This document shows positions 8,377 through 25,994 of a DNA stretch of 32,313 nt, piece after piece. The notes below the pieces were generated by a model. That model had not been told where the DNA came from. It searched no databases and was given only the letters and a program-made list of their open reading frames with translations. The stretch is taken from contig NZ_AFPM01000308.1 of assembly GCF_000220565.1 (NCBI RefSeq), forward strand, positions 1-32,313, written 5' to 3'. This DNA is from Oceanicola sp. S124 (GTDB taxonomy: Bacteria; Pseudomonadota; Alphaproteobacteria; Rhodobacterales; Rhodobacteraceae). The translations under genes and the position numbers were made by a program. Within the stretch, counting starts at the first letter, position 1, and the number at the start of each line of letters is the position of its first letter.

Positions 8377-9276
8377 TCAGCTGCCCTGCCCTTCAAGACC
8401 TGCGCGCAGGGTTTCCAGCGTCATCAGCGTCGATTGCACCCCGCCCCCGGCGATGTAGATCGGCCCCGCATCGAGGAAGACCACCTGACCGGCGCGCCAG
8501 GCCTTCGTCTCGCGGATCAGCGCATTGTCGAGCGTCGCGCGGGCGTTCTCGCCTTCGCCACCGATGGCCGCGACACGGTCGATGACCAGCAGCCAGTCCG
8601 GGTCCAGGTCGCGAACATATTCGAACGAGACCGCCTCGCCATGGGTCTCGGCCTTCAGCTCTCCCGCCGCTTCCGTCAGGCCGGTCAGGTCATGCAGCCA
8701 GCCGAACCGCGATCCGCTGCCATAGACCGAGATCTTCGGGCCGTTGGTCAGCAGGATCAGCGCGCTGCCCTTGCCCTCGGCGGCGGCACGGGTGGCGGCG
8801 ATGGCCTGCTCGACCTCGGCCTTCAGCGCGGCGGCCTTGGTCTCCATGCCCCAGATCTGCCCGTAGGCCTCAAGCCGGGCCAGCCCCTGTTCGATGACAT
8901 CGGCGCCCCAGATCGTCATGTCGATGGCAGGCGCGATGCGGGCCATGTCCTGCAGGTGCGGCTGCGAGCGCCCGCCGACGATCACCAGGTCGGGCTCGGC
9001 CGCGTTGACCGCCTCGAAGTCGGGTTCGAACAGCGAGCCGGCATCACCGGCGTAGCCTGCAAGGTAGTCAAGGTAGGTGTTGCTGATCGAGGTCAGCCCG
9101 GCGACGCCCAGGGCATCCAGCGTATCCAGCGCCGCAAGGTCGTAGACGATGGTGCTGGCCGGGCCGGTCTCGACCTTGGCCGGGCCGGGATAGGTCTGGA
9201 CGGTGACGGTCTCCGCGGCGGCGGCCGTGCTCAGGCCGAGAAACGCCGAGAGGGCGAGGGTGGCAATCCTGGTCAT
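8377..9276 (-). CDS. CeuE-like catecholate-siderophore ABC transporter substrate-binding protein
   Basis: A 299-residue periplasmic protein, signal peptide 1-21 (ending AAAA). It fits the CeuE/YclQ/FatB group of the Peripla_BP_2 fold, with family stretches ISVYGSGSRFGWLHDL, THGEAVSFEY and YIAGGG. In Campylobacter CeuE, three arginines (118, 205, 249), His 227 and Tyr 288 bind the ferric catecholate. Here Arg 103, Arg 190, Arg 234 and His 212 show the same spacings, and Tyr 274 lies one residue off, so a full binding site seems kept. ATG at 9276 has an AGGAG site; the longer open frame upstream is rejected. No permease or ATPase gene is adjacent. It diverges from a MarR regulator. Confidence 0.88.
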   Translation of the reverse strand: MTRIATLALSAFLGLSTAAAAETVTVQTYPGPAKVETGPASTIVYDLAALDTLDALGVAGLTSISNTYLDYLAGYAGDAGSLFEPDFEAVNAAEPDLVIVGGRSQPHLQDMARIAPAIDMTIWGADVIEQGLARLEAYGQIWGMETKAAALKAEVEQAIAATRAAAEGKGSALILLTNGPKISVYGSGSRFGWLHDLTGLTEAAGELKAETHGEAVSFEYVRDLDPDWLLVIDRVAAIGGEGENARATLDNALIRETKAWRAGQVVFLDAGPIYIAGGGVQSTLMTLETLRAGLEGQGS

Positions 9277-9295
9277 GTGGTACTCCTGTTGTGAG

Positions 9296-9330
9296 GGGCC
9301 GACCCGGGGGCGTCCCCGAGGTGTCGGCCC
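9296..9330 (-). promoter_or_regulatory. Nested inverted repeat in the leader of the CeuE-like gene
   Basis: GGGCCGAC (9296-9303) pairs with GTCGGCCC (9323-9330), enclosing a shorter GGGG/CCCC hairpin. It occupies the divergent interval between the CeuE-like gene and the MarR gene, close to the ribosome site of the former. It could be an operator for the MarR protein or an mRNA leader fold; the sequence does not decide. Confidence 0.45.
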
Positions 9331-9391
9331 TATGGTGTTGAGGCTGGTGAAGCGGTAGTGGGAGGGCACGGAACGAGCGGGACCCCCGACC

Positions 9392-9868
9392 ATGGCAGAT
9401 ACCCCCGACAGGCAGCATGATCCCTTCGCCGGGGATACCGACCCCCGGATGGGGGCCAACCGGGTCTGGTTCAACCTGCTGCGGATCCAGCGCAGCCTCG
9501 GGGCGCGGATCGCCCGCCGCCTGCGCCAGCACGGCATCGGGGATCCGCTGTGGTACGAGATCCTGCTGGAACTGGAACGCGCCGGGCCGGCGGGCATGCT
9601 GATGGCCGACCTCGAGCAGAAGCTGTTCACCGCGCAATATGCCCTGTCGCGCCACGCCGCCCGGATCGAGGCCCAGGGCTGGATCCGCAGCGAGGCCAGC
9701 CCCGGCCCCGGGCGCAGCAAGCGCCTGCGCCTGACCGAGACCGGCCTGGGGATGCACCAGACGATCTGGGAGGCCTACAGCGAGATCATCGCGGAAGAGA
9801 TCGGCAGCCGCCTGACAGTGGACGAGGCCTATGACGTCGCCCGCCAGCTGATCCGCCTCTATCCCTGA
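9392..9868 (+). CDS. MarR-family winged-helix transcriptional regulator
   Basis: A 158-residue regulator. Helices from about 23 onwards lead into a winged helix (about 50-115): DPLWYEILLELERA, LMADLEQKLFTAQYALSRHAARIEAQGWI as the recognition helix region, then a wing with SPGPGRSKRLRLTETG. Terminal helices serve dimerisation. The proline- and aspartate-rich first 20 residues look disordered. Position between a siderophore binding protein (divergent) and a TonB receptor (convergent) suggests control of siderophore uptake, though MarR proteins normally sense phenolic ligands. A catechol-type siderophore or breakdown product would be a natural effector (inference). Confidence 0.87.
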   Translation: MADTPDRQHDPFAGDTDPRMGANRVWFNLLRIQRSLGARIARRLRQHGIGDPLWYEILLELERAGPAGMLMADLEQKLFTAQYALSRHAARIEAQGWIRSEASPGPGRSKRLRLTETGLGMHQTIWEAYSEIIAEEIGSRLTVDEAYDVARQLIRLYP

Positions 9869-10017: not shown

Positions 10018-12012
10018 TCAGAAGCGCGTCACCGCGACCAGCGAGATCGTCCGGCCCGGCTCCTTCAGCGTGGTGATGGTGTCGTACTCGGCGCCATAGG
10101 TCGCACGGTCGGCGTATTCCACGTCGAAGAGGTTGCTGACCTCGGCGCGCAGGGTCAGGTTGGACAGGCTGGGCGGAACGTATTCGGCCCAGAGATTGAC
10201 CACGGTGTAGCCCTCGTAATCGCGCGAGGTCGGATCCGGGGCCTCCTCGTCCAGCGCGATGTCGAGGCCACCGCCCAGCGTCAGCCCGCTGATCCGGGTC
10301 TCCTGCTCGATCTCGAAGGCCATGACCGTGCCGATCGGGGTGCCGAAGTCCTGCGCATCCCAGCTGCCCGCGATGGTGCCGTCGACCCTGACCTCGCTAT
10401 GGGCCAGGGTGGCGCGGGCAAAGCCGCTGCCCCAGCCGTAGGTCGCGCCGAGGTTGAAGCCCCGGCTCTCGAAATCGAAGGTCGAAGTGGACGAGCGCGC
10501 ATTGTCCATCCTAGTCACGAAGACCTCGCCCGAGAGGGTCAGGGCCCCCTGCGTCCAGTCAAAGCCGAGGGTGGCATTGTCCGCCCGCACCGCGTCCAGC
10601 GCGTCATAGCTGCCGGGGGCGCGCAGGCCCTCGTAGAGGTAGTTGTCCTCGATCACCAGGCCACCGAAGACCGAGGAAACGCCGCCGCGCAGGGCCAGCG
10701 CCTCGGTCACCGCATAGGTCAGCGAGGCATTGCCCGACACACCCTGGAAGGTCTTCTCGAAACCGTTGACCCCGGTGAAGTCCTGCCGGTCGAAGCGGGC
10801 CCCGAACGAGACCTTGAGCGCCTCGGTGGGCCGCAACCGGGCCTGGGCGAAGACCCCGAGGTTGCGCGAGCTTTCGGTATCGTCGGCGGGATAGGTCGCG
10901 TCCTCGCTGAAGTAATGGCCGCGCTTGCGCTGGAAATCGACGCCGGCGGTCACCGTGTCCTCGGCCCCGAGGTGGAAGGTGTTCTCGGCGGTCATCGACA
11001 GGGTGTTCGATGTGCCGTTGCTGTCGTAGGGCTCGGGCTTGTCGATCAGGCTTTCCGAGAAGCCGATGTGCAGCCGGGGATCCCAGAGCCCGATGGCATC
11101 GGGCTGCTCGTAGCTGAGCGCATAGCTCGAGCGGGTGGTGTCATAGGGGATCAGCGCATCGCTCACGCCACGGAAGCCGCCGAAGTTGGCACGCTCCTGT
11201 CGCAGGGCATTGTCCTGCAGGCGCTGCGCCGAGACCTCCAGCCGGTGCCCGCCGGCCTCGTAGGCGACCTTGGCAAGGTAGCTTTCCAGCGCCGCGCGGG
11301 TGCCGTGCATCCGATCGCCGCCCCCCGAGGTGTAATCCTCGCCATCCGCCAGCTTGCCGTAGAGCAGCCATTCGAAGCCGCCCTCGCGGCCGGCCAGGGT
11401 CAGGCCGGTTTGCAGGGTTTCGCCGTTGTCGGAATAGGACAGGCGCAGGTTGCCGCCGAAGTTTGCGCCGGTGTCGAGGATATCGGCAGCGTCGACGGTC
11501 TCGAAGACCACCGAACCGGCCAGCGCATAGGGCCCCGCATCGGCGGGCGAGACGGTGGCATCCGCGCGCACCTGCTTCAGCAGCCCCGGGTCGATGGCAT
11601 TGGCCGAGACATGGTGGAAGGCGCGGTTGTTCTGCGCCGTTCCGTCAAGGGTCACCCCGAGGTTCAGCATGTCGACACCGTTGACGTAGATCTTCTGGGT
11701 CAGCGGCAGCGCGCCGCCGACCGAGACCGAGGCGATCCCCGAGAAGACATCCTTGAGGTCGCCGGTCCGGGCCTGTTCCAGCTCGCGCTCGGAGACATAC
11801 ATCGAGGTGGCGCGGTCGGCCTCACTGCCCAGCTCGTCGCGCTGCTCGACGGTGATCGGGTCCAGCGTGAAGACCGCTGTTGCCTCCTGCCCCAGAGCGC
11901 CCTGCCCCGGAAGGGCGATCAGCGCCAGCGCGCTGCAGGTGGCAAGGTGATGCGCGGCCCGGCGCCCAGTGCGTGGCGCGCCGTGCGTAGCCCGTTCGGC
12001 GGAAGGTGTCAT
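10018..12012 (-). CDS. TonB-dependent outer-membrane siderophore receptor
   Basis: A 664-residue outer-membrane receptor. After a long basic N-terminus a hydrophobic core (about 27-42, ending ALGQ) gives an export signal. A TonB-box-like stretch LDPITVEQRDE comes next. The plug domain (about 65-175) has DLKDVFSGIASVSVGGA and KIYVNGVDMLNLGVTLDG. The rest is a beta barrel with alternating strands and the classical final aromatic residue, ending VTRF. Neighbouring binding protein and its catecholate-type site suggest a ferric catecholate as cargo; the plug alone would also allow heme. AT-rich promoter DNA lies upstream. Start at ATG 12012. Confidence 0.92.
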   Translation of the reverse strand: MTPSAERATHGAPRTGRRAAHHLATCSALALIALPGQGALGQEATAVFTLDPITVEQRDELGSEADRATSMYVSERELEQARTGDLKDVFSGIASVSVGGALPLTQKIYVNGVDMLNLGVTLDGTAQNNRAFHHVSANAIDPGLLKQVRADATVSPADAGPYALAGSVVFETVDAADILDTGANFGGNLRLSYSDNGETLQTGLTLAGREGGFEWLLYGKLADGEDYTSGGGDRMHGTRAALESYLAKVAYEAGGHRLEVSAQRLQDNALRQERANFGGFRGVSDALIPYDTTRSSYALSYEQPDAIGLWDPRLHIGFSESLIDKPEPYDSNGTSNTLSMTAENTFHLGAEDTVTAGVDFQRKRGHYFSEDATYPADDTESSRNLGVFAQARLRPTEALKVSFGARFDRQDFTGVNGFEKTFQGVSGNASLTYAVTEALALRGGVSSVFGGLVIEDNYLYEGLRAPGSYDALDAVRADNATLGFDWTQGALTLSGEVFVTRMDNARSSTSTFDFESRGFNLGATYGWGSGFARATLAHSEVRVDGTIAGSWDAQDFGTPIGTVMAFEIEQETRISGLTLGGGLDIALDEEAPDPTSRDYEGYTVVNLWAEYVPPSLSNLTLRAEVSNLFDVEYADRATYGAEYDTITTLKEPGRTISLVAVTRF

Positions 12013-12302: not shown

Positions 12303-12716
12303 TCAGAAGCGCTTGGACAGGAAGCAGCGGCTGCGCCCGGCGACGAAATCCGGGATCTCTCCGCAGAGGGCATAGCCGGCGGCCTCGTACCGCGCGCGGG
12401 CCTGCGGGTTGAAGGTGTCGATATGGGCACCGGTGCAGCCACGGGAACGGGCCTCGTCCTCGGCCCGCGCCAGCAATGCCCCGGCAAGGCCCTGACCGCG
12501 CTGGCTTTCCGCGACCCAAAGCCACTGCACGTAAAGCCAGCCCCAGGCGGTCATGCCGTTTAGCCCGGCAACGAGGTCGCCGTCCTGATGCACCGTGATC
12601 GCCAGCGGGGTCCGCACCGAGGGGCCGACCGTGGCGTCAATGTAGGCGGCAAGCTGGCGCCCCAGCTCGGCCACCGCCGCGTCCGGCGTATCGGTCAGCT
12701 GCCAGCGGAGGCTCAT
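12303..12716 (-). CDS. GNAT-family N-acetyltransferase
   Basis: A 137-residue acetyltransferase. The acetyl-CoA pyrophosphate loop reads [11 protein letters not shown] (about 79-89), followed by [12 protein letters not shown] as the last conserved element. ATG at 12716 overlaps the anmK stop (ATGA), so it is translationally coupled to anmK as the last gene of the salvage operon; the frame stays open upstream within anmK but that is not a gene. The acceptor is unknown. The operon suggests an amino sugar, a D-amino acid or a peptide amine released from cell-wall turnover (inference). Confidence 0.85.
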
Positions 12717-13831
12717 GCCCGGGCGATCCTGCCGCCGGTCATCGGCGCCGGCACGCCGGTGGAGGTGGGGAAGCTGATCGGCAGGCCGCGCAGGCTGCGC
12801 ACGGCCAGCAGGGCAAAGCACTCGGCCTCGACCGCATCGCCACGCCAGCCCATCACCTCGGCCGGTTCCGCAACGACGCCCGCGCGGGCGTTCAGCGCCG
12901 CCATCAGCGCCGGATTGCGCCGCCCGCCGCCGCAGACGATCAGCCGGTCCGGCCGGGTCGGCAGCAGGTCCAGCGCGCAGCCGACCGCCGCCGCCGAGAA
13001 GGCGGTGAGGGTCGCCGCCCCGTCCTCGGTCGAAAGCCCGGCGCACCAGTCATGGCCGAAGTCGAACCGATCCAGCGATTTCGGATAGGGGCGCGTCATG
13101 TAGTCCATGGTCAGCCGCTCGGCCAGCAGCGCCTCGTCGACTGTGCCCGCCAGCGCCAGCGCGCCGTCGACATCCATCTCGCCCCGGCCCCGGGCGCGGA
13201 CGAAATCGTTGATCGGCGCATTGGCCGGGCCGGTGTCGAAGGCGGCAATGCTGCCATCCTCGCCCCGCCAGGTGACATTGGCCACGCCGCCGAGGTTCAG
13301 CACAGCCGTGCCCCTGGGCGCGCCCGCCGTCTCCAGCAGCGCCTTGTGGTAGATCGCCGAGAGCGGCGCCCCCTGCCCGCCTGCCGCCATGTCGGCACTG
13401 CGGAAGTCATAGCCCACGTCGCAGCCGAGGATCTGTGCCATCAGCGCCCCGTCGCCCAGCTGGCGGGTGGCGCCAAGACGGGCCGGTGTCGGCGCGCGGT
13501 GCAGCACGGTCTGGCCGTGGAAGCCGACCACGCCGATGTCGCCCATCGACAGCCCCGCGCCCTCGACCACCTGCCGCACGGCCTCTGACTGCGCGCGGGT
13601 CAGCAGCGCCTCGGCCTCGGCGAAGATCGCAGGCTCCGGTCCCTCGAAGTTCCAGGCCCGCGCCTGGGCCAGTGCCTCGGCCAGGATCACGTTGATCTCT
13701 GCCGGGTAGGGCACGAGGTCATAGGCGCCGAACTCGGCGATGGTCTCGCCATCGGTGCGCAGCAGGGCCACGTCGATATTGCCGTCCAGCACGGTGCCGG
13801 TCATCAGGCCGACAGCCCAGATCGGGTCCAT
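12713..13831 (-). CDS. anmK: Anhydro-N-acetylmuramic acid kinase
   Basis: A 372-residue sugar kinase of the AnmK family. It opens 1,6-anhydroMurNAc with ATP and water to give MurNAc-6-phosphate, the substrate of MurQ. Recognisable motifs are the N-terminal phosphate loop [11 protein letters not shown] (family usually GLMSGTSLDG), [41 protein letters not shown] and CGGGRRNP. Length matches the family. It follows the serine hydrolase by two bases and overlaps the GNAT gene by four. The V-L-D-G-N variation in the first loop is notable but sits in an otherwise complete protein. Confidence 0.95.
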
Positions 13832-13833
13832 GG

Positions 13834-14823
13834 TCAGTCCTCCAGTATCGCCTCGCCGACGGCGCGCCGCAGGTCGAGGATCTCGGTTTCAACATGGCGC
13901 GACGGGTGCACGCGGTTGGTCAACAGGCTCCAGCCGCAGCCCCGGTCCAGGTCCAGCCAGAGCCCGGTGCCGGTAAAGCCGGTATGGCCGATGGTCCGGG
14001 CCGAGGCAGCCGAGCCGCCGTGCCAGCCCTCATGCGCCAGCTCCCAGCCATGACCGCGGGTGTCGCGCAGCGGGGTCAGCAGCAGCGCGCAATGGCCGTC
14101 CTGCGCCGCGTGGCGATCCAGCAGGCCGGACGCGAAATCCAGCACCCCGTCAATGGTCCCGAACAGCCCCGCGTGGCCCGAGCCCTGCAGTGCGTAGCAG
14201 TTCTCGTCATGCACCTCGCCGCGCATCACCCGGCCACGCCAGGAACAGGCCTCGGTCGGGGCGGTCTGATCGGCGGGCGGCGCGAAGGAGAGACCCGGCG
14301 CTAGCTCCATCTGGTGGATCGTGCGCCCCTCCAGCCGCTCCAGCGCGATGCCCAGCAGGATGAAGTTGATGTCGGAATAGACCTGCGGCCCCGGCTGCCA
14401 GTTCCGTTGCAGCACGAAGGCGCGCAGCGTCGCGGGGTCACTGCCGTAGGTGTAGATCGGTTCGACCGCCGGATAGGCGGTGCGGTGGCCGAGGCAGTCG
14501 CGGAAGGTCACCTGCCGCTGCCACGAGCCCGCGTGATACTGGTGCAGGTCCGGGATCACCGAGATCAGCGGCGCGTCCAGGTCGATGCGGCCGGCGGCGG
14601 CATGGGCCAGGATGCGCTCGGTGGTGAAGATCACCTTGGTCAGCGAAGCAAGGTCGAACCAGGTGTCGGTCTCCATCCCCGGCGCGTCGTCGCCGGTCTC
14701 GCGCTGGCCGCAGGACCAGGTGCGGCGGCTGCCATCGGCCAGCACCTGCCCCAGCACGGCGCCGGGGATGGGGGTGCGTTGCAGATGCGCGGCAATGACG
14801 GTGGTGGCGCGCGCGAACCCCAT
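13834..14823 (-). CDS. Serine hydrolase of the class-C beta-lactamase / penicillin-binding protein family (YfeW/AmpH-like)
   Basis: A 329-residue protein with the active-site set of the family: SLTK at 60-63 (nucleophile Ser 60 and Lys 63), a YSDIN element in place of the usual YxN, and GHTG in place of KTG. Such proteins act as D-Ala carboxypeptidases, peptide hydrolases or esterases. In E. coli the related YfeW belongs to the murQ-murP operon, matching this context. No signal peptide is obvious when read from ATG 14823, so it may be cytoplasmic. An in-frame ATG at 14868 is possible but would overlap the ATPase by 44 bases; 14823 starts one base after the ATPase stop and is preferred. Confidence 0.82.
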
Positions 14824-14824
14824 C

Positions 14825-16561
14825 TCAGGCCCCTGCCCGCACGAGGTGACCTTCACCCGCGCTCTCATAGCGCGGCGCGTCGGGTTCCCAGCCCATGGGA
14901 CGGACCAGCGAGGGGATCTCGGTCAGGTCGATGCCATAGTCACTGTGGCGCCGGTCGAGCGAGGGCACGGCCTTGATCAGCTGGCGCGTGTAGTCGTGGC
15001 GCGGATTGGCCAGCACCTCGGAGGTGGGTCCGATCTCGACGATCTGACCGGCGTAGACCACGGCGATGCGATGCGCGATGCGCTCGACCACCGCCATGTC
15101 GTGAGTCACGAACAGATAGGCCAGGCCGAATTCGTTCTGCAGGTCGATCAGCAGGTCCAGCACCTTGGCCTGCACCGAGACGTCCAGCGCCGAGACCGCC
15201 TCGTCCAGCACCAGGATCGAGGGGTTCAGCATCAGCGCGCGGGCGATGCACAGCCGCTGGCGCTGACCGCCCGAGAACTCATGCGGATAGCGCGCCAGGC
15301 TGTCGGCGGGCAGGCCGACGCGATCCAGCAGCATCTCCATCCGCGACACCGCCTCGGCGTCGATGCGGCGGCGCACGGCGATCAGCGGTTCGGCCAGCAG
15401 CTGCTTCACCGTCAGCCGGGGATTGAGCGAGGCGTTGGGGTTCTGGAACACCATCTGCACCGGCTTGTCCGACACGGCCCCGGCCAGACCCTCGGCCCGG
15501 ATGCGGCCCTTGGTCGGGCGTACCAGGTCCAGGATCGCCCGCGCCGTGGTCGACTTGCCGGACCCGCTTTCGCCGACGATGCCCAGGGTCTCGCCCTGCA
15601 TCAGGTCGAAGCCCACGCCCTCGACCGCATGGACATTGCCGGTCTGCCGCTTCAGCAGGCCCGCGCGGACCGGAAAGCGGACCGTCAGGTCCTCGACCTC
15701 CAGCACCTTGCGGCTGCCTTCGTCGCGCTGCATGTCATGGCGCACCGAGCGCCCGTCCGAGAAATGCGGCACCGCGTTCAGCAGGTGCTTCGTATAATCA
15801 TGCTGCGGGTTGTCCAGAACCGCGTCCAGCATCCCCTGCTCGACCACCTCGCCCTGCTGCATGACCATGACGCGATCAGCGAAACCGGCGACGAGGCCGA
15901 TGTCATGGGTGATGAAGATCATTCCGGTGCCGGTCTCGCGCTTCATCTCGGACAAGAGGCCCATGATCTGCGCCTGAATGGTCACGTCCAGCGCCGTCGT
16001 CGGCTCGTCCGCGATCAGCAGGCGCGGGTTCGAAGCCAGGGCGATGGCGATCATCACCCGTTGCAGCATACCCCCCGACAGCTGGTGCGGCGCATAGGTC
16101 AGGCGGCGGGCGGCATCGGGGATGCGCACCCTCTCCAGCGCCTCGCGGGCGGCCGTCTTCGCCTCTGCGCCCGACATGGCGAACTGGATGCGGAAGACCT
16201 CTTCGATCTGGGTGCCGATGCTCAGCACCGGGTTCAGCGAGGTCATCGGCTCCTGGAAGATCATGCCGATCTCGCGGCCCCGGATGCCTTCCAGCTGGCG
16301 CTCTTCGGCGCGGGCCAGGTCGATTGTGCTGCCATCGGCGCGGGTGAAGGCGGTGCTGCCCGAGGTGATGCGCCCGCCGCCGAAGTCGATCAGCCGGTTC
16401 ACCGCCATCGAGGTCACGGATTTGCCCGAGCCGCTTTCGCCGACGATGGCCAGGGTCTCGCCCGGGGCGAGGTCGAAGCTGACGCCGTGGACGACCTCGT
16501 TGCTTTCGGGTCGGGGGCCGAAGCCCACCTTGAGGTCGCGGACGGATAGCAGGCTGCTCAT
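14825..16561 (-). CDS. Fused double ATP-binding protein of an oligopeptide-type ABC importer
   Basis: A 578-residue protein with two complete ATPase domains, as in GsiA or YejF. The first half has GESGSGKS (41-48), LSGGMLQRV and [12 protein letters not shown]; the second has a second [17 protein letters not shown] and [12 protein letters not shown]. After each half comes the C-terminal oligopeptide-transporter segment (first: [14 protein letters not shown]; second: [14 protein letters not shown]). It powers the permease pair encoded upstream. Its start overlaps the second permease stop (ATGA). The last 40 residues (about 535-578) are a non-conserved tail. Confidence 0.94.
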
Positions 16562-17397
16562 GCCAGGGCCCTCCGGGTCTTGGGGTCGAGAAGGTCGCGC
16601 AGCGCATCGCCCAGCAGGTTGAAGCCCAGCACGGCGAAGCTGAGCGCCACGGCGGGCACCAGCAGCAGCCAGGGGGCCATCTCCATCAGGTTGCGGGCAT
16701 CGGCCAGCATCAGGCCCAGCGAGGCCTGTGGCGGCTGGGTGCCGAGGCCGAGGAAGGACAGCCCCGCCTCGGTGATCAGCGCCCAGGCCAGCGCCAGGGT
16801 GATCTGCACGGTCAGCGGGGCGACGAGGTTCAGCGCCAGGTGGCGGGACATGATGTAGCGCCGGGACGAGCCGAAGCTGCGCGCCGCATCGACGAAATCG
16901 CGCCGCTTCAGCGACAGCGCCGGGCCGCGCACGACGCGCGTGAAGATCGGCGTGTAGACGATGGCGATGGCCAGGATCGAGGTCCAGCCCGAGGGCCCCA
17001 TGATGGCGATGATCAGCAGCGCCAGCAGGATGGCCGGGAAGGCCAGCAGCACATCCATCAGCCGCATCACGATGCCGTCCCAGAGGCCTCCGTACCAGGC
17101 GGCGGTCAGGCCCAGAACGGTGCCCGCCAGCGTCGCCACGGCGACCGAGAAGAACGAGACGATGAAGCTCTGCGCCACGCCGACCATCAGCCGGGACAGC
17201 ACGTCGCGCCCGAACATGTCGGTGCCGAAGAGATGGCTGGCCGAGGGCGCCTGCAGGCGCGCCAGCCGGTCCTGGGCCAGCGGATCGAAGGGCGACAGCC
17301 CCGCCTTGCCCGCAATGGCGGCCAGCAGGAAGACCAGGACGATGATCAGGCCGATCCGGCCCGAGGGGTGGCGAAGAAGATCACGAAAGAGGGACAT
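16558..17397 (-). CDS. Oligopeptide-type ABC transporter permease (DppC/GsiD-like)
   Basis: A 279-residue inner-membrane protein. The first helix is IGLIIVLVFLLAAIAGKAG. SHLFGTDMFGRDVLSRL is the hallmark of the DppC/OppC family, and the ATPase-docking EAA loop is DAARSFGSSRRYIMSRHLA with LNLVAPLTVQ after it. Stop and start of the two permease genes overlap. ATG at 17397 is preferred; a GTG at 17400 would add one residue. With the first permease it forms the channel for the salvage importer. Confidence 0.93.
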   Translation of the reverse strand: MSLFRDLLRHPSGRIGLIIVLVFLLAAIAGKAGLSPFDPLAQDRLARLQAPSASHLFGTDMFGRDVLSRLMVGVAQSFIVSFFSVAVATLAGTVLGLTAAWYGGLWDGIVMRLMDVLLAFPAILLALLIIAIMGPSGWTSILAIAIVYTPIFTRVVRGPALSLKRRDFVDAARSFGSSRRYIMSRHLALNLVAPLTVQITLALAWALITEAGLSFLGLGTQPPQASLGLMLADARNLMEMAPWLLLVPAVALSFAVLGFNLLGDALRDLLDPKTRRALA

Positions 17398-18356
17398 CAC
17401 TTGGTCTCGAAACGGATACGGGGGTCGAGCGCGGCATAGGCGAGATCCACCAGCAGGTTCACGACCATGAAGTTGAAGGCGATGAACAGGATCGTGCCCT
17501 GCACCAGCGCGTAATCGCGCTGCTGGATCGCATCCAGAACGACGCGGCCCAGCCCCGGCAGGGCGAAGATCTGCTCGACCAGCACGGCACCGCCCAGCAG
17601 GTAGCCGAACTCGACGCCCGACAGGGTGACCAGCGGGATCAGCGCATTGGGCAGCGCATGGCGCCAGATCACCCGGCGCCGCGACAGCCCCTTCGAGCGC
17701 GCGGTGCGGACGTAGTCCTCGGAGAGGATGTCCAGCATGGCCGAACGCGAGACCCGTATGACGGCGGCGGCGAAGGCCGTGCCGAGGGTCAGCGCGGGCA
17801 GGATCATCTGCGACAGGTTGCCCAGCGGATCCTGCCAGAAGGGCACGAAGCTGCCCATCTGCGGCAGCACGCCGAAGAAGACCGACAGCGAGAAGATCAG
17901 CAGCAGGCCGACCACGAAGCCCGGCGTCGACTGGCCCAGCATGGCGACGACACGGACGGCAAGGTCGCCGGGACGGTCCTTGTGGGTGGCGGCGTAGATC
18001 CCGGCGGGCAGGCCGATCACCAGCGACAGCAGCATCGACAGCACTGCCAGTTCCAGCGTCAGCGAGAAGTGGTCGAAGATCACCCGCAGCACCGGCTGGC
18101 CGTAGGTGGTCGAGATCCCGAAGTCCCCCTGCACCACCCCCGACAGCCAGCGCCAGAACTGCACGAAGATGTTCTGATCGAGCCCGAAATAGGCTGTCAG
18201 CGCCTCGCGCTGCGCCGGGGTCAGCAGGCCGGATTCGGTGCCGAGCATCGCGGTGATCGCGTCACCCGGCACCAGCCTGATCGCTATGAAGACGAAGACC
18301 GAGACGCCGAACATCACCAGGGGAAACGCCAGCAGGCGCTTGAGCGGATAGGGCAT
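17397..18356 (-). CDS. Oligopeptide-type ABC transporter permease (DppB/GsiC-like)
   Basis: A 319-residue inner-membrane protein with the N-terminal helix of the family (LLAFPLVMFGVSVFVFIAIR), LVPGDAIT, FGLDQNIFVQFWRWL and GDFGIS, all typical of DppB/OppB. The EAA loop reads EDYVRTARSKGLSRRRVIWR followed by HALPNALIPLVTL. It starts at ATG 18356 behind a purine-rich leader, 21 bases after the binding-protein stop. Confidence 0.94.
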   Translation of the reverse strand: MPYPLKRLLAFPLVMFGVSVFVFIAIRLVPGDAITAMLGTESGLLTPAQREALTAYFGLDQNIFVQFWRWLSGVVQGDFGISTTYGQPVLRVIFDHFSLTLELAVLSMLLSLVIGLPAGIYAATHKDRPGDLAVRVVAMLGQSTPGFVVGLLLIFSLSVFFGVLPQMGSFVPFWQDPLGNLSQMILPALTLGTAFAAAVIRVSRSAMLDILSEDYVRTARSKGLSRRRVIWRHALPNALIPLVTLSGVEFGYLLGGAVLVEQIFALPGLGRVVLDAIQQRDYALVQGTILFIAFNFMVVNLLVDLAYAALDPRIRFETK

Positions 18357-18377
18357 CTGTCCCGGTCTCCCGTCTGC

Positions 18378-19892
18378 TTACCTGTCGATGGTCACGTCAG
18401 AGAGCGCAAAGAGCGATCCCGTGGGGGTGGCGACGAAACCGTTCACGTCCTCCTGCGCGGCGGCATAGGAGAAGCCAGTGTAGAGCCAGACCCAGGGCGA
18501 GGCCTCGACCAGCTTGTTTTCCAGCTCGGCGAAGATCTCCTTGCGCGCTTCGGGGTCGGTGGTGACGCGGCCCTCGGTCATCAGGCGGTCCAGGTCGTCG
18601 TCGATGTAATGGGCGACCTTCTGGAAGGTGGCCTCCTTCATCCAGTAGCGGTTGTACATGGTGAAGGGATCGGGCTTGCCGCCGTTCAGCGCCACCGCCA
18701 TGTCGAAGTCACCGGCCAGCCAGCGGTCGACGTAGACGTTCAGTTCGAGCAACTGGATCTTCAGGTCGATGCCGATCTCGGCCAGCTGCGACTGGATCAC
18801 CTGCGCTTCCGAGGCGGCGGTCGGCGGCTCGCCGGTGGCGGCCATGATCTCGGCCGAGAAACCGTCGGCGAAGCCTGCCTCGGACATCAGCGCCCTGGCC
18901 TTGTCCAGATCCTGCTCGTAGCAGAACAGGTCGCTGACTTCATTGCCGTAGGCGGCCATGGTCATCGGGCCGGTCACCGCGCCCTCGCCCAGCAGGGCGG
19001 TGTCCAGGATGTCCTGGCGGTCGAGCGCGCAGGAGATCGCCTGACGCACCTTCAGCTCGGTCATCGCGTCGCGCTCGGCGTTCAGCTGCAGCACGTGATA
19101 GGACAGCACCGGCGCCTTCTCCAGCTTCAGGCCCGGGGTCTGGGGGATCAGCGTGGCGACGAAGGGATCGTTGATCAGCGCGAAATCGACCTGGCCGGAG
19201 CGCAGCGCGGCAAGGATCGCTGTCTCATCCGGCAGCACCGAGATGTCGAGGCCGTCGATGGCCACCTCACCGCCCGCCCAACCGTCATTGGCAACCAGCT
19301 TGGCGCCGGAATTCGGCGTCCAGCTTTCGAACTTGAACGGGCCCGAGCCGACGACCTCAGTGCCTAGGGTGCCCGCCTCGATGGCCGAGGCCGGGACGAT
19401 GGCGGCATTCAGCGTCGCCAGCGCGGTCAGGAAGGGCACGTTCGGGCCGTCCAGCTTGAAGACCACGGTCTTGTCGTCCGGCGTCACGATCTCGGTGATC
19501 GAGGTGTAGTTGGCCCGGGCCGAGGCGCCGGTTTCCTCGTCGAGGATCCGCTCGAAGGTGGCCTTGACGTCGGCCGAGGTGACGGGCGTGCCATCATGGA
19601 AGGTGGCATCGGCCTGCAGATGCAGGGTCAGTTCCGTCGCCTCGTCGTTGAAGGCCCAGTCGGTGGCCAGCGCCGGGGCGATGGCGGCATCGGCATCCAG
19701 GCGCACCAGCGGCTCGTACATCAGCTCAAGGAAGCGGATCGACGAGAAGGCGGTCTGCTTGTGCGGATCGAGGCCGGTGGCATCCTGCGACCAGGCGACC
19801 TTCAGCGTCTCGGCCATCGCCGGGCTCAGCGCCCCGGCGGAGAGCGCAAGGGCCAGGCCCATGGCGGTCAGCGGCTTGGAAAAGTGTTTCAT
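18378..19892 (-). CDS. Oligopeptide-type ABC transporter substrate-binding protein (SBP_bac_5)
   Basis: A 504-residue periplasmic protein, signal peptide about 1-27 (ending MAE). Family hallmarks are LKVAWSQDATGLDPHK at the mature N-terminus, FLELMYEPLVRLD, LHLQADATFHDGTPVTSADV and VVGSGPFKFESW. Size and layout match DppA/GsiB binders of short peptides. In the context of murQ and anmK the ligand may be a muropeptide or anhydroMurNAc-peptide; Agrobacterium imports muropeptides with a comparable ABC system (YejBEF with YepA). The assignment of cargo is inference. It lies 43 bases after murQ. Confidence 0.92.
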   Translation of the reverse strand: MKHFSKPLTAMGLALALSAGALSPAMAETLKVAWSQDATGLDPHKQTAFSSIRFLELMYEPLVRLDADAAIAPALATDWAFNDEATELTLHLQADATFHDGTPVTSADVKATFERILDEETGASARANYTSITEIVTPDDKTVVFKLDGPNVPFLTALATLNAAIVPASAIEAGTLGTEVVGSGPFKFESWTPNSGAKLVANDGWAGGEVAIDGLDISVLPDETAILAALRSGQVDFALINDPFVATLIPQTPGLKLEKAPVLSYHVLQLNAERDAMTELKVRQAISCALDRQDILDTALLGEGAVTGPMTMAAYGNEVSDLFCYEQDLDKARALMSEAGFADGFSAEIMAATGEPPTAASEAQVIQSQLAEIGIDLKIQLLELNVYVDRWLAGDFDMAVALNGGKPDPFTMYNRYWMKEATFQKVAHYIDDDLDRLMTEGRVTTDPEARKEIFAELENKLVEASPWVWLYTGFSYAAAQEDVNGFVATPTGSLFALSDVTIDR

Positions 19893-19935
19893 GTCGAACT
19901 CCAGGTTGGGTGTCCGGGCGCCTCTCGCGGCCCGG

Positions 19936-20916
19936 TTATTCAGCGTCTGTCTTGGGGTGCCCGTCTTTGGCGGGCTGCCCGTCTGTCCTTGTCGTCCCGT
20001 CGATGGCCTGCCTCAGCACTCCGCCCGAGGCCCGCAAGCGGGCCGCCGAGGTTTCCGGGTCAAGCCCGGTCATCTGCATGAAGAGGGCAAGCTTGACGTC
20101 ATTGCCTGCCTGTTCCAGCAGCCGGTCCGCCTCTTCGGGGGCGATGCCGGTGGTTTCGCACAGGATGCCGACGGCCCGCGTGCGCAGCTTCAGGTTCGAG
20201 ACCCTCAGGTCGACCATCAGGTTCTCGTAGGTCTTGCCGATGCGGATCATCGCGCCGGTGCTGATCATGTTCAGCACCATCTTCTGCGCGGTCCCCGACT
20301 TCAGCCGGGTCGAGCCGGTCAGCACCTCGGGGCCGACCATGGGCGCGATGGCGATCTCGGCGTGGCGGGTGATCGCGGACCCCGGGTTGCAGGTCAGCGC
20401 CACGGTCACCGCGCCGAGATCCCGCGCGTAATCGAGCGCGCCCAGCACGTAGGGCGTCTTGCCGCTGACGGCGATGCCGACAACGACATCCCGGTCGGTC
20501 AGGGATATGGCGCGCAGGTCTTCGGCGCCCTGTGCCCGGTCATCCTCGGCGCCTTCGACCGCGTCGCGCAGGGCGATGTCCCCCCCGGCGATGATGCCCA
20601 CCACCATGCCAGGATCGACCGAGAAGGTCGGCGGGCATTCCGAGGCGTCCAGCACCCCGAGCCGCCCCGAGGTCCCTGCCCCGATGTAGACCAGCCGCCC
20701 GCCGTCGCGGAAGGCGGCCTCGACGTGGGTCACGGTCTGGGCGATGGCGGGCAGTTCGGTCTGCACGGCGGCAGCCACATGGGCGTCCTCGGAATTGATC
20801 AGGGCCAGCATCTCGGCGACCGGCAGGCGGTCGATCTGCTGCGTGCGGGGGTTGCGCCCCTCGGAGACGAGACCCCGCAGCGCGGCAACGGCATCGGTAT
20901 CAATTCTGGTGGTCAC
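19936..20916 (-). CDS. murQ: N-acetylmuramic acid 6-phosphate etherase
   Basis: A 326-residue SIS-domain lyase. It removes D-lactate from MurNAc-6-phosphate to give GlcNAc-6-phosphate. Hallmarks are EGRNPRTQQIDRL near the start, YIGAGTSGRLGVLDASECPP (78-97), GIIAGG, VEGAEDD, GIAVSGKTPYV and LKSGTAQKMVLNMIST. The two catalytic glutamates of the family correspond to Glu 93 and probably Glu 124. It starts at GTG 20916 (GTGACCACC). The last 20 or so residues are a polar tail not typical of the family. First gene of the salvage operon, divergent from murR. Confidence 0.95.
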   Translation of the reverse strand: MTTRIDTDAVAALRGLVSEGRNPRTQQIDRLPVAEMLALINSEDAHVAAAVQTELPAIAQTVTHVEAAFRDGGRLVYIGAGTSGRLGVLDASECPPTFSVDPGMVVGIIAGGDIALRDAVEGAEDDRAQGAEDLRAISLTDRDVVVGIAVSGKTPYVLGALDYARDLGAVTVALTCNPGSAITRHAEIAIAPMVGPEVLTGSTRLKSGTAQKMVLNMISTGAMIRIGKTYENLMVDLRVSNLKLRTRAVGILCETTGIAPEEADRLLEQAGNDVKLALFMQMTGLDPETSAARLRASGGVLRQAIDGTTRTDGQPAKDGHPKTDAE

Positions 20917-20955
20917 TGATTCACCCGGCGTCCTCGACCTGCTTTCTCACAAGCT

Positions 20956-20970
20956 GGAATTTTTTATTCC
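20956..20970. promoter_or_regulatory. Candidate MurR/RpiR operator 1
   Basis: GGAAT-TTTTT-ATTCC is a perfect 15-base inverted repeat in the divergent murQ/murR promoter. A TTGACA hexamer on the minus strand (20974-20979) lies beside it, so binding would block murQ transcription. Palindromes with such arms around an A/T core are typical of RpiR-family sites. Confidence 0.6.
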
Positions 20971-20988
20971 CCATGTCAAACTATGCTT

Positions 20989-21003
20989 TGCATATTTTAT
21001 TCC
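20989..21003. promoter_or_regulatory. Candidate MurR/RpiR operator 2 (degenerate)
   Basis: TGCAT-ATTTT-ATTCC shares the right arm and the five-base A/T core with operator 1, and three of five positions in the left arm. The centres are 33 bases apart, close to three helix turns, placing both sites on the same face of the DNA. Confidence 0.45.
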
Positions 21004-21204
21004 TTCCGGCGAAGCTGAGCAGATCCCCGGTCACCGTCGGGCCCGGCAATCACCCGCACCGCACCGGAAAAACGTCGTGAATTCGGCGGTTTGCCCGGCT
21101 ATCCTGCGCCCTGCGACAGGTTGCCGGGGCCGCCGCCCCGCCCCGGACGGCTCTGTCCGGCCACCCCGTGCACTGCCCGCGAACCGGGCTGGAAGGAGAT
21201 CAGG

Positions 21205-22053
21205 ATGTCGGTCCTCACCGTCCTCAAAGCCCAGCTTCCCGGTTTCACCGCCGGGGAGCGCGAGATCGCGGAATACGTTCTGGCCAGCCCCGAGAAGGTG
21301 GTGCAGCTGTCTTCGGCCGGGCTGGCCAAGGCCACCGGGCGCAGCCAGTCCGGGGTGGTGAAGCTGTGCCAGAAGCTGGGATATCGCGGCTACCAGGACT
21401 TCAAGATCGCCGTCAGCCAGGCCACGGCGCAAAGCTGGCCCACGCCCTCGGACATGGTGCATGGCACCATCGAAAGCTCCGACAGCTATCAGAGCACGAT
21501 CCAGAAGCTGATCGGGTCCAAGATGAATGCGATCCAGCAGTCGATCCAGGTCAACGGAGAGCCCGCCCTGCGCCGCGCCCTCGATGCCATCCTCACGGCG
21601 CGGCGGGTGCAGCTTGTCGGGGTCGGCGCCTCGAGCCTCGTGGCGCGGGACTTCACCTACAAGCTGCAGAAGCTGGGGTGCTTCGTGCTCTTCGACGCCG
21701 ACAGCCACATCCAGATCGCCAATACCTCGACCCTGCGCGAGGGCGACGTGATCCTGGCCCTGTCCTATTCCGGGGCCAGCATCGAGACGGTGCAGATCGC
21801 CGAGGCCGCGAAGGCGCGCGGGGCGACGCTGATCAGCCTGACCGGGATGCATCCGAACCGCCTGTCGGGCCTGGCCGATATCCAGCTGTTCCTGGTCGCG
21901 GACGAGGACAAGGTCCGCTCGTCGGCCATCGCCAGCCGCGATGCGCAGCTTGCCATGGCGGACCTGCTGTTTATCCTTGCCATCCAGCGGCGCCCCGATG
22001 CGACATCCAAGATCCAGGCGGCAGAGCAGGCCGTGGCGGTCCTGAAATCCTGA
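21205..22053 (+). CDS. MurR/RpiR-family transcriptional regulator
   Basis: A 282-residue regulator. Residues 1-77 form the HTH_6 DNA-binding domain (TAGEREIAEYVLASPEKVVQ, LAKATGRSQSGVVKLCQKLG). Residues about 105-262 form a SIS domain that binds a phosphosugar (VQLVGVGASSLVARDFTYKL, ILALSYSGASIETVQIAEAA). In enteric bacteria MurR senses MurNAc-6-phosphate; divergence from murQ makes the same effector likely. ATG at 21205 follows a strong GGAAGGAGATCAGG leader; the open frame continues upstream to 21091 but that part is GC-rich spacer and is rejected. The 288-base interval to murQ holds the two operator candidates. Confidence 0.9.
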   Translation: MSVLTVLKAQLPGFTAGEREIAEYVLASPEKVVQLSSAGLAKATGRSQSGVVKLCQKLGYRGYQDFKIAVSQATAQSWPTPSDMVHGTIESSDSYQSTIQKLIGSKMNAIQQSIQVNGEPALRRALDAILTARRVQLVGVGASSLVARDFTYKLQKLGCFVLFDADSHIQIANTSTLREGDVILALSYSGASIETVQIAEAAKARGATLISLTGMHPNRLSGLADIQLFLVADEDKVRSSAIASRDAQLAMADLLFILAIQRRPDATSKIQAAEQAVAVLKS

Positions 22054-23855: not shown

Positions 23856-23959
23856 GGGTTCATTCTGAACATTCCATGAACATGCGCAACCCCCTTTGGT
23901 CCCCGGCGGGGGGACGCCTATGTTCCCCGGATGCGCAGGCCAGAAGGGGCGGGACTCAC

Positions 23960-25252
23960 GTGAACGACAGAACCGATGATCGCGACAAGGTCGAACACAG
24001 CAGGCCAGCTCAGCCCGATCCCCGCGCCCGCATGGTGCACGAGCTCGAGGGGCACCTCGGCATCCTCGACACCTTCACCGGCGCGGCCCTCGGCGTGCTG
24101 GCGGTGGCCTCGGGGATCTATACCTACCTTGGCGTGCAATCGCTGCTGGATGGCGACGGCGCCATGCAGGCCTTTGCCGCCATCGCCTATTCCGTCGCCG
24201 TCTCGACCGGGATCTTCGTCTTCTGGTCCTACCTGATGCGGCTTTTCCCGGCCATGCGCTCGGCCCGGTCACGCGCCGGGCTGCTGGCCGCCATGGGGCT
24301 GGGATCGCTGGCCATCGTCGCCATGTCCTCCTGGCTGAACGCCGCCGCGCTGGCGGGCGGCGCGGCGGTAGAGCAGCACCTGGCCGAGACCGTGCAGGAC
24401 TACCAGGCGGCGCTGGAGCGCGCCAACGAGAACGCCCTGGCCGCCCAGGGACTGCAACGCGACGTGGCGCGGGTTCAGCAGAGCTTCGCCGATCTGTCGG
24501 AACAGGAAGCCTCGGGCGGGCTCTCGGGGCTGGCCGGTCGCGGCGCGGTCTTCCGCGTGCTGCGCCAGAAGTCCGAAGAGCTTTCGGCGCTGGAACAGCA
24601 GATCGCCGCCCAGTCGCCGCTGGTCGATGCGGCCTTCACCGAGGGCAACGCGATCCTCAGCCGGATGCGCGCCCTGACGGTAGAGCCCGGCCCCGTCGAA
24701 ACCCGCGCGGTAGAGTTCTCCGAGGAAGCCGTGCAGCTTGCCGGGCTGATCGCGCGGCTGCGCCAGCTCTCGGTGGCGCCGCTGGTGGAACGCGCGGCGC
24801 AGGACCTGACGGCCTCGGTGGTGCTGCCGGAACTGGACGGCGGCAGCGAGACCTCGCGCCTCGCGCAGGGCACGACCATCGCCTCGGTGCTCGACGTGCT
24901 GGCGCAGCGCGCCACCACGCTGGAGAGCGCCGCCGCCCAGGTCATCGCCCTGCCCGCCCCGGCCGAGATCACCTATACCCCCCTTTCGCCCGCTGATGCG
25001 GTGATCCGCTACGCCGGCAACTTCGTGCCCTCCTGGGCCGGCGCCATCGCCATCGACCTGCTGCCGGCAGTCATGGTGCTGATCCTCGCGGTGACCCAAG
25101 GCGCCATCCGCTCGGGCCGCGAGGCGGTGCCGATCGAAGACCGGATGACGGTCTCGGAACTGCGGGCCGCACTGGCGGCGGCGCGCGACGTCGACGAGGC
25201 CCTGGCCGAGGGCCGGGTCAGCGCCACGCGCGAGGGGGCGCCGGATGTCTGA
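23960..25252 (+). CDS. Uncharacterised membrane protein with a long coiled-coil region
   Basis: A 430-residue protein. Three hydrophobic segments come early (about 36-60, 70-94, 106-132). About 220 polar residues rich in Ala, Glu, Gln and Leu follow, with heptad character (VQDYQAALERANENALAAQG, VLRQKSEELSALEQQIAAQS), then a fourth hydrophobic segment (about 362-385) and a 47-residue tail. The coiled-coil part therefore probably projects on the outer side of the membrane. The start is uncertain: GTG at 23960 follows a purine-rich AAGGGGCGGG, while an in-frame ATG at 23876 would add 28 residues with no helix. It overlaps the ClpP-like gene by eight bases, so the two are co-translated. I do not recognise a named family. 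Confidence 0.78.
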   Translation: MNDRTDDRDKVEHSRPAQPDPRARMVHELEGHLGILDTFTGAALGVLAVASGIYTYLGVQSLLDGDGAMQAFAAIAYSVAVSTGIFVFWSYLMRLFPAMRSARSRAGLLAAMGLGSLAIVAMSSWLNAAALAGGAAVEQHLAETVQDYQAALERANENALAAQGLQRDVARVQQSFADLSEQEASGGLSGLAGRGAVFRVLRQKSEELSALEQQIAAQSPLVDAAFTEGNAILSRMRALTVEPGPVETRAVEFSEEAVQLAGLIARLRQLSVAPLVERAAQDLTASVVLPELDGGSETSRLAQGTTIASVLDVLAQRATTLESAAAQVIALPAPAEITYTPLSPADAVIRYAGNFVPSWAGAIAIDLLPAVMVLILAVTQGAIRSGREAVPIEDRMTVSELRAALAAARDVDEALAEGRVSATREGAPDV

Positions 25253-25994
25253 GCCGTCCGAAGGGATTACCCTGCGCCGCGCCCTGACGGGGGTGCTGGG
25301 CTTCCAGGTTTTGCTGGCGCTGCTGCTGTTCCTCGGTGACCTGGGAGAGGGCTTTGTCTGGCCGCGCCGGGGCGCCGATGCGCCGGGCTTCGACCAGCCG
25401 ACCGCGCCCGGCGACCAGACCCGCCGCTTCGAGCCGACCCGCCCCGCCGGGCCCGGTGTCGCCCCCTCGGGCCCCATGCCCGAGCGGCTGGTGCTGACCG
25501 AACGCGACGGCGCCTGGCACCTGTCGGGCGGCATCGCGCCGGGCGACGGCGCCCGCATCGCCCGCCAGATCGGATCGCGCGAAGGCGAGGCGCGGCCGGG
25601 AGTGGTCTTCCTCGACAGTCCCGGCGGCTCGGTCCAGGACGCGCTGGAGCTGGGACGGGCCCTGCGCGCGGCGGGCCTGGCGACGGACATGGAGGACGGC
25701 GCCATCTGCCTTTCGGCCTGCCCCTACCTGCTGGCGGCGGGCGTGACCCGCAGCGCCGACGAGGGCGCAAAGATCGGCGTCCACCAGCATTATTTCGGCG
25801 AAAACACCCTGCTGCCCGCCTTCACCGCCGTGTCGGATATCCAGCGCGGCCAGGGGCTTGTCATGCGTTACCTCGACGAAATGGGCGTCGACCCGCGCCT
25901 GATGGGCCCCGCCCTGATGACCCCGCCGGACGAGATCTACCTGCTGACCCGGGACGAGCTGACCGATTTCGCCCTGCTGACCGAGGCCGGCTAA
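25245..25994 (+). CDS. Membrane-anchored ClpP-like serine protease (COG3904-type)
   Basis: A 249-residue protein. One hydrophobic segment near the N-terminus (about 15-32) anchors it; a proline-rich linker (about 45-80) leads to a ClpP/crotonase-fold domain (about 82-245). The oxyanion strand is FLDSPGGSVQDALELG (122-137), the nucleophile Ser 157 sits in CLSACPYLLAAG, and the base is His 180 in IGVHQHYF. YLDEMGVDPRLM follows as in COG3904 proteins. The Cys pair around Ser 157 fits an oxidising periplasmic site. It is coupled to the coiled-coil membrane protein by an eight-base overlap, suggesting a joint function in the envelope. Confidence 0.83.
   Translation: MSEPSEGITLRRALTGVLGFQVLLALLLFLGDLGEGFVWPRRGADAPGFDQPTAPGDQTRRFEPTRPAGPGVAPSGPMPERLVLTERDGAWHLSGGIAPGDGARIARQIGSREGEARPGVVFLDSPGGSVQDALELGRALRAAGLATDMEDGAICLSACPYLLAAGVTRSADEGAKIGVHQHYFGENTLLPAFTAVSDIQRGQGLVMRYLDEMGVDPRLMGPALMTPPDEIYLLTRDELTDFALLTEAG

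Follow-up and report, generated by a model that had tools for sequence, protein, structure and literature searches.

In Escherichia coli K-12, the regulator gene murR is divergent from murQ-murP-yfeW, whereas in Bacillus subtilis MurQ, MurR and an amidase acting on N-acetylmuramic acid (MurNAc)-L-Ala are grouped in murQ-murR-murP-amiE-nagZ-ybbC, of which amiE and nagZ serve extracellular degradation (PMC5061867; papers are cited throughout for what excerpts of them state). In Agrobacterium, muropeptides are imported by YejBEF-YepA, a peptide-type ATP-binding cassette (ABC) system, and the pathway uses AnmK, MupP, AmgK, and MurU (PMC9790009). The window analysed here, a stretch of 32,313 nucleotides from Oceanicola sp. 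S124 (contig NZ_AFPM01000308.1), carries at positions 12303–22053 a nine-gene set in which a murR-like regulator gene is divergent from a compact minus-strand operon that runs from murQ to a GNAT gene and includes an ABC importer, a serine hydrolase, and anmK.

With the E. coli divergon (locus L202 in our set) this locus shares the divergent RpiR-family regulator, a MurQ of 53% identity, and a YfeW-like hydrolase (25.6% over 328 columns, E 2e-16), but it has an ABC importer in place of the MurP phosphotransferase system (PTS), AnmK within the operon, and a hydrolase without an evident signal peptide. No MurP or other PTS gene is present among the nine genes, the rest of the genome not having been searched for MurP. 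The Agrobacterium system (PMC9790009) resembles it in being a peptide-type ABC importer of muropeptides in Alphaproteobacteria, although the Oceanicola permeases and ATPase are Gsi/Opp2-like, the periplasmic binding protein (hereafter, the binder) is its own, and the operon contains murQ. In B. subtilis, the amidase is extracellular and MurP belongs to the PTS (PMC5061867), whereas here the hydrolase is apparently cytoplasmic and the importer is of the ABC type. ABC import of muropeptides and the MurR divergon are both already known; their combination, as found here, appears to be new. No description of such an operon was found in openly licensed papers, for broad queries among the top matches listed, which does not prove its absence from the literature, and the excerpts of PMC4344238 and PMC3557214 make no mention of MurR or muramic acid.

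Co-occurrence of the importer with murQ and anmK

The peptide-type importer and the genes of MurNAc catabolism form a real module that spans several phyla. In a tree of 118 binders, 27 are encoded with anmK and/or murQ within 9 kb, 77 with neither, and 14 were left unjudged for too little flank. All 27 associated loci (20 alphaproteobacterial, three actinobacterial, three from Chloroflexota, and one from Deinococcus) fall into a single clade of 35 rows with a support of 99 in the Shimodaira–Hasegawa-like approximate likelihood ratio test (SH-aLRT), and none of the 72 judged rows outside it is associated, so that the co-conservation of transporter and murQ/anmK, set beforehand as a check by the sequence-only reading, was indeed observed. 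The labels change four times on the tree, compared to a mean of 24 after shuffling, with none of 500 shuffles as low. Among the 27 loci, anmK is found in 26, murQ in 23, the hydrolase in 23, all three in 22, and murR in 20; the other eight rows of the clade, five 'neither' and three unjudged, come from the Chloroflexota sample. Since the whole or partial set is found again in these 27 loci, the grouping of the genes is beyond chance.

The tree was quickly built and has several long branches, and the label 'neither' required only 3.5 kb of flank on each side. Seven rows with that label are other binders of the host genome with 1.5 kb of flank, labelled so because the only other AnmK and MurQ-like protein of that genome lie on other contigs. 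Some of the anmK and murQ queries for tblastn came from these same loci, so that members of their families were the most readily detected. More distant binders do not in general stand in such loci: among 80 loci retained out of 193 relatives, only the top four (L047–L050) have murQ or anmK, and neither gene was seen for the other 76 (at most 35% identity), 11 of which have too little flank to judge.

The occurrence of the module is sporadic. A close binder is present in one of the 385 genomes of the class sample, namely the host itself (E 1e-110), in 11 of the 151 genomes of the Martelella family sample, where all 11 loci have the four importer genes (with the ATPase fused) together with murQ, the hydrolase gene, and anmK, and in one of the 396 genomes of the Actinomycetota sample, again with the full set (L210). 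At a laxer limit, 15 of 251 Chloroflexota genomes matched; ten stretches were added from these, leaving out G800, G816, G657, G670, and a second place in G872. The binder also matches 20 plasmid records at E 1e-60; of these eight were read, including three of the 15 of Rhizobium type, each of which carries the full set from murQ to anmK. The Rhizobium, Embleya, and Nonomuraea plasmid stretches have no annotation, and their genes were located by tblastn. True MurQ is found in two of 120 genomes of the host family, both with the full set (the host and L043), and MurQ exceeds its cut-off in nine of the 385 class genomes. The module is thus not general in the host family.

Inheritance of synteny within one lineage does not account for the association, as the genes are arranged differently in members of Actinomycetota and Chloroflexota, with full sets in other orders in Nonomuraea (L140), Embleya (L139), the actinobacterium of L210, and Chloroflexota L193. 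Partial sets comprise binder, permeases, and a convergent anmK in Chloroflexota L050; anmK, hydrolase, two ATPases, and DgcA in Mariluticola (L142); murQ, a SIS protein, nagA, a BadF kinase, and GntR in Chelatococcus (L143); anmK and GntR in Deinococcus (L144); and a further one in Chloroflexota L197. A lytic transglycosylase is not a regular part, being found after anmK in R. tropici only.

In Deinococcus radiodurans grown under sub-background radiation, transcripts labelled MurQ etherase, AnmK, DR_1571 ABC binder, and OppC are reported with log2 values of −1.95, −1.98, −1.70, and −1.75, respectively, at 34 h; the labels come from BLASTx, and another transcript labelled DR_1571 rises (1.45) (PMC8136434). 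This joint fall is compatible with co-regulation.

The regulator and the palindrome in the murR–murQ gap

The regulator is an RpiR-family protein with HTH_6 and SIS domains that aligns with E. coli MurR at 36% identity (251 columns), although it scores below the MurR equivalog cut-off (NF012026, 161.7 versus 408 bits). The gap between murR and murQ contains the palindrome GGAATANNNNATTCC, which occurs once in the host genome assembly (4.65 Mb, 92% complete; reversed control, none); on the murQ strand, GGAATAAAAAATTCC directly follows a TTGACA box (20979–20974). The same palindrome is found in the gap on the murR side of L047, L048, L049, L137, L184, L185, L187, and L188, this gap lying between murR and a second murA (murA2) in L137, L184, L185, and L188, and an imperfect form is found in L043, L138, and L141. 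Several Rhizobium-type loci have a second palindrome ahead of murQ. An operator-like palindrome is common to the alphaproteobacterial members of the module, and we propose that it may serve as the MurR operator.

Counted over 15 genomes (76.8 Mb), the exact palindrome has 36 sites, compared to four strand hits of the control, located in G641 and G583. Inside the cluster stretches (0.167 Mb), which were set by hand once the sites were known, there are 21 sites where 0.08 would be expected. In G641 and G545, the operon has no adjoining murR, and the palindrome lies 20–23 kb off, between murR and murA2-nagK; because the palindrome itself led to those loci, their sites are not independent, and 19 remain without them. 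The distribution of the sites links MurR with the importer operon even in genomes that encode the two at separate places, although it falls short of proof of binding. Three of the 15 off-cluster sites were inspected, two within long open reading frames (ORFs; G504 and G641:C6) and one between ORFs (G502:C61), and tblastn found no relevant gene near any of them. By eye, no such clean repeat is present in the murR–murQ gap of E. coli.

In ten of the 13 Rhizobium-type loci, genes for an additional MurA and for a NagK-type kinase are inserted between murR and murQ; in two others both lie at a distant murR locus (20–23 kb), and L187 has none in its stretch. The second MurA (L137:7446–8762 and nine other loci) is a wall-synthesis enzyme inside a catabolic locus marked by MurR. 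Chelatococcus has both murA2 and a NagK-type kinase; its murA2 (L143:3705–4963) reads in two frames, being either broken or affected by a sequencing error.

Importer, hydrolase, and probable cargo

With its SBP_bac_5 binder, two BPD_transp_1 permeases, and oligo_HPY ATPase, the importer has the composition of the Opp/Dpp (SBP_bac_5) type. For permease B, the Opp2B model gives 330 bits and YejB 116 (cut-off 445); for permease C, GsiD gives 239 and the Yej-type PRK15021 gives 83 (cut-off 439); and for the ATPase, GsiA gives 627 and YejF 539 (cut-off 834), both below their own cut-offs. Every Yej model stays below its cut-off, as well as below other Opp-type models. By these scores, the importer is classed as Opp/Gsi-type and not as YejBEF, in agreement with the earlier impression that it stood nearer to Gsi than to Yej. 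It is highly improbable that the operon merely harbours, by accident, a conventional importer of nickel, opine-metal complexes, glutathione, or dipeptides. The NikA, GsiB, and Opp2 models come out on top for the binder and the permeases, and the cut-offs of NikD, NikE, CntD, and CntF are exceeded by the double ATPase, but the binder and both permeases stay below the cut-off of every named family model, the link with murQ/anmK is found within a single binder clade yet spans four phyla, and the shared palindrome follows that link.

The AlphaFold2 (AF2) model of the binder, with a predicted local distance difference test score (pLDDT) of 88, has the SBP_bac_5 fold. Both phmmer and the Foldseek E-value rank AgaA (6hlx, 31% identity), the binder of agropinic acid, at the top, whereas a profile search puts 5u4o first and AgaA second, and the model fits 5u4o with a TM-score of 0.87 versus 0.73 for AgaA. 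AgaA serves opine use and not the cell wall; its ligand is a conjugate of a sugar and an amino acid. The solved relatives listed are mostly binders of peptides or conjugates, with chitin-oligosaccharide and sialic-acid binders and MppA also present. Two residues of E. coli DppA that hold the ends of the bound peptide, Arg383 and Asp436, correspond in the Oceanicola binder to a gap and to Gly405, respectively (pairwise alignment at about 23–24% identity); Gly405 is invariant in all 28 clade rows of the binder alignment, and both DppA residues are also changed in the structure 8z1z. The loss of both anchoring residues argues against an ordinary free dipeptide, without thereby identifying the ligand.

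The importer could instead take up free murein peptides in the manner of MppA/Opp, with murQ and anmK linked to it only via shared wall turnover. The Opp/Dpp fold and permeases and the presence of MppA among the structural matches would suit such a role, as would an enolase-superfamily gene in the Mariluticola locus (452 bits with DgcA, cut-off 400; 334.5 with the L-Ala-D/L-Glu epimerase model, cut-off 343) and its relative in Embleya. Epimerase-like genes are, however, found in just these two of the 37 stretches searched, profile searches detected no peptidase among the nine genes, the adjoining enzymes act on sugars, and both dipeptide-anchoring positions are lost. We regard free-peptide import as decidedly improbable; of the three cargoes considered from the sequence (free anhydroMurNAc, an anhydroMurNAc-peptide, or a peptide), the free peptide is the least favoured.

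The hydrolase belongs to the class C fold, with the SxxK, YSD, and HTG motifs (HPG in L140); Ser60, Lys63, Tyr149-Ser150-Asp151, His280, and Gly282 are invariant in 18 alignment rows. Its AF2 model (pLDDT 87) has the class C beta-lactamase fold, which AmiE presumably shares, and a Foldseek search gave the class C fold and nothing narrower. The hydrophobicity maximum of the N terminus is 0.5–1.5 in 21 copies (the host and 20 homologues; 23 were found, and L047 and L210 were left out), compared on the same scale to 1.8 in YfeW and 1.5–2.8 in 26 of 33 binders. Judged by hydrophobicity alone, for which the ranges overlap, the hydrolase seems to lack a signal peptide. As the 21 copies show no evident hydrophobic leader, cleavage probably takes place in the cytoplasm, once the fragment has been imported. 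The sequence-only reading is thus partly supported: its view of a murR module with an oligopeptide-type ABC importer in the position of MurP holds for gene content and co-conservation, while the trimming that it envisaged would take place in the cytoplasm.

With import likely to precede cutting, we expect a peptide attached to MurNAc or anhydroMurNAc as the cargo, and the presence of AnmK at all but one of the 27 loci favours the anhydro sugar. Import of free MurNAc or anhydroMurNAc, with the hydrolase otherwise employed, for example as an esterase or D-amino-acid amidase, is unlikely, although free sugars are the substrates of AnmK and MurQ, and the NagK-type kinase that adjoins murQ in ten of the 13 Rhizobium-type loci, or lies 20–23 kb off in two more, could phosphorylate imported MurNAc. 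L050, L144, and L197 have anmK and no hydrolase, and the AnmK fold family also contains levoglucosan kinase. Set against this are the hydrolase near the binder in 23 of the 27 loci and the solved relatives of the binder, of which most of those listed hold peptides or conjugates, although some hold chitin-oligosaccharide or sialic acid.

The enzymes downstream of import are assigned by curated models. MurQ passes the TIGR00274 cut-off of 302 bits and retains the ASECPPT and EGAED stretches of its E. coli counterpart, AnmK passes the NF007141 cut-off of 352 bits, with Asp199, Gly201, Pro202, and Asn204 invariant across 11 alignment rows, and NagA is encoded once elsewhere in the genome (257 bits, cut-off 226). 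We picture the locus as a MurR-controlled catabolic operon for peptidoglycan fragments. The importer, with a binder of its own clade, would bring a MurNAc-containing fragment through the inner membrane, most likely an (anhydro)MurNAc-peptide; a cytoplasmic YfeW/AmiE-type hydrolase would strip the peptide, probably at the MurNAc-L-Ala amide; AnmK would open and phosphorylate anhydroMurNAc to MurNAc-6-phosphate (MurNAc-6-P), from which MurQ would remove lactate to give N-acetylglucosamine-6-phosphate (GlcNAc-6-P); and this would be deacetylated by NagA. MurR would bind GGAATANNNNATTCC at the murQ promoter region and would be released by MurNAc-6-P, by analogy with E. coli. That the importer serves MurNAc-containing fragments is very probable. 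The full account, including a peptide-bearing cargo cut in the cytoplasm, in which we infer the cargo, the bond cut, repression, and the inducer, is somewhat better than an even proposition.

Several observations weigh against this account. The hydrolase reaches 57.6 bits against the cut-off of 385 of the PBP4B (YfeW) model, even though that model is its top-scoring one, and seven of the 33 binders, whose starts are uncertain, also have hydrophobicity maxima of 0.5–1.5 and overlap with the hydrolases. MurQ also occurs without a near binder, as only one of the nine MurQ-positive class genomes (the host) gave a binder at E 1e-110 in a class sample drawn the same way, and five Chloroflexota rows of the clade (L192, L195, L196, L200, and L201) have neither murQ nor anmK in 16–20 kb. 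The exact palindrome is absent from the operons of G641 (none before murQ) and G047, and 15 of its 36 sites lie outside the clusters. Finally, other contigs of the host genome encode another AnmK and a protein resembling MurQ, and the operon at 12303–22053 is therefore an extra set.

The second AnmK of the host is encoded at G000:C250:12941–14002 and the MurQ-like SIS protein at G000:C121:33–860, the latter adjoining a BadF-type kinase-like gene and a gene resembling that of ManNAc-6-P epimerase. A MurQ-like SIS protein that scores below the etherase cut-off is common in the family, being the sole MurQ-type match in 27 of the 120 genomes (for example, G037 and G103). Two copies of anmK were found in the genomes of the host and L047, whereas both Martelella genomes and that of L050 yielded no anmK besides the importer-linked copy.

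Gene layout and possible place among muropeptide importers

All nine genes are present where they had been placed from the sequence, as confirmed by domain and curated-model matches (Table 1), and the gaps and overlaps are as described there, with 43 bases between binder and murQ as the widest intergenic gap of the operon and 4-base overlaps between ATPase and permease C and between permeases C and B. Three of the starts had to be revised. That of the GNAT gene is likelier at 12716 than at 13046, with the domain retained, that of the hydrolase is at 14823 instead of 14868, because the L047 and L048 copies begin directly after the ATPase stop, and that of murR is probably at about 21205, where similarity sets in, instead of the TTG at 21091.

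Table 1. Coordinates of the operon genes, the regulator gene, and the palindrome in the window
Feature	Coordinates	Strand	Basis
GNAT N-acetyltransferase, final operon gene	12303..12716	-	Acetyltransf_1 4.9e-12
anmK, anhydro-N-acetylmuramic acid kinase	12713..13831	-	NF007141 475.8 bits
Serine hydrolase of class C type, resembling YfeW/AmiE; no evident signal peptide	13834..14823	-	PF00144 1.1e-28
Importer fused double ATPase, 578 aa	14825..16561	-	Two ABC_tran and oligo_HPY
Importer permease C	16558..17400	-	BPD_transp_1, OppC_N
Importer permease B	17397..18356	-	BPD_transp_1
Periplasmic binding protein with hydrophobic leader	18378..19892	-	SBP_bac_5, PF00496 1.2e-83
murQ, MurNAc-6-phosphate etherase	19936..20916	-	TIGR00274 407.7 bits
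Palindrome GGAATAAAAAATTCC, proposed MurR operator	20956..20970	-	Position in murR–murQ gap
murR-like RpiR-family regulator	21205..22053 (probable start)	+	HTH_6 4.1e-21, SIS 1.3e-19

A homologue of the host-type GNAT is found near the binder in 14 of the 27 associated loci, on the opposite strand in those of Martelella and Rhizobium. In L192, L194, L195, and L196, which are Chloroflexota members of the binder clade, a GNAT gene adjoins the importer with no murQ or anmK in the stretch, which in L194 covers only 4 kb. Directly beyond the operon end and on the same strand lie genes for a TonB-dependent receptor and a Peripla_BP_2 protein (10018–12012 and 8377–9720), by family a set for iron or cofactor uptake, although an outer-membrane route for the fragments is conceivable. 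On the plus strand, two successive ORFs of 458 and 249 aa with high third-position GC occupy 23876–25994, and a Pfam search at E 1e-5 gave no match for either.

Elsewhere, MurNAc use has been predicted from MurQ and GlcNAc genes (PMC5507952), and Caulobacter is reported to have AnmK and to lack MurQ (PMC13046382). A murQ mutant of Streptomyces coelicolor accumulates MurNAc-6-P, and no MurP ortholog is reported for this species (PMC5061867). For mycobacteria, in which import of wall fragments is described as unclear (PMC12617635), a 2026 preprint posits a transporter of unknown identity, with M. smegmatis given as having MurQ and no MurP (PMC13041923). The module described here is a concrete candidate class for such MurP-less, MurQ-positive bacteria that process MurNAc without a known importer, and the binder clade, the partner hydrolase, and the palindrome are handles for finding further members.

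We can speculate, at slightly less than even confidence, that AmpG and YejBEF-YepA are joined by a third kind of muropeptide importer, an ABC system of Opp type dedicated to this task and found in at least four phyla. It would take up intact (anhydro)MurNAc-peptides and, with a cytoplasmic amidase of beta-lactamase fold in the place of AmpD, feed AnmK and MurQ. If so, the importer of MurNAc compounds that is missing in MurP-less, MurQ-positive Actinomycetota might be of this kind, and the Rhizobium-type MurR regulon, with its second MurA and NagK, would close the loop from scavenged wall to wall precursor.

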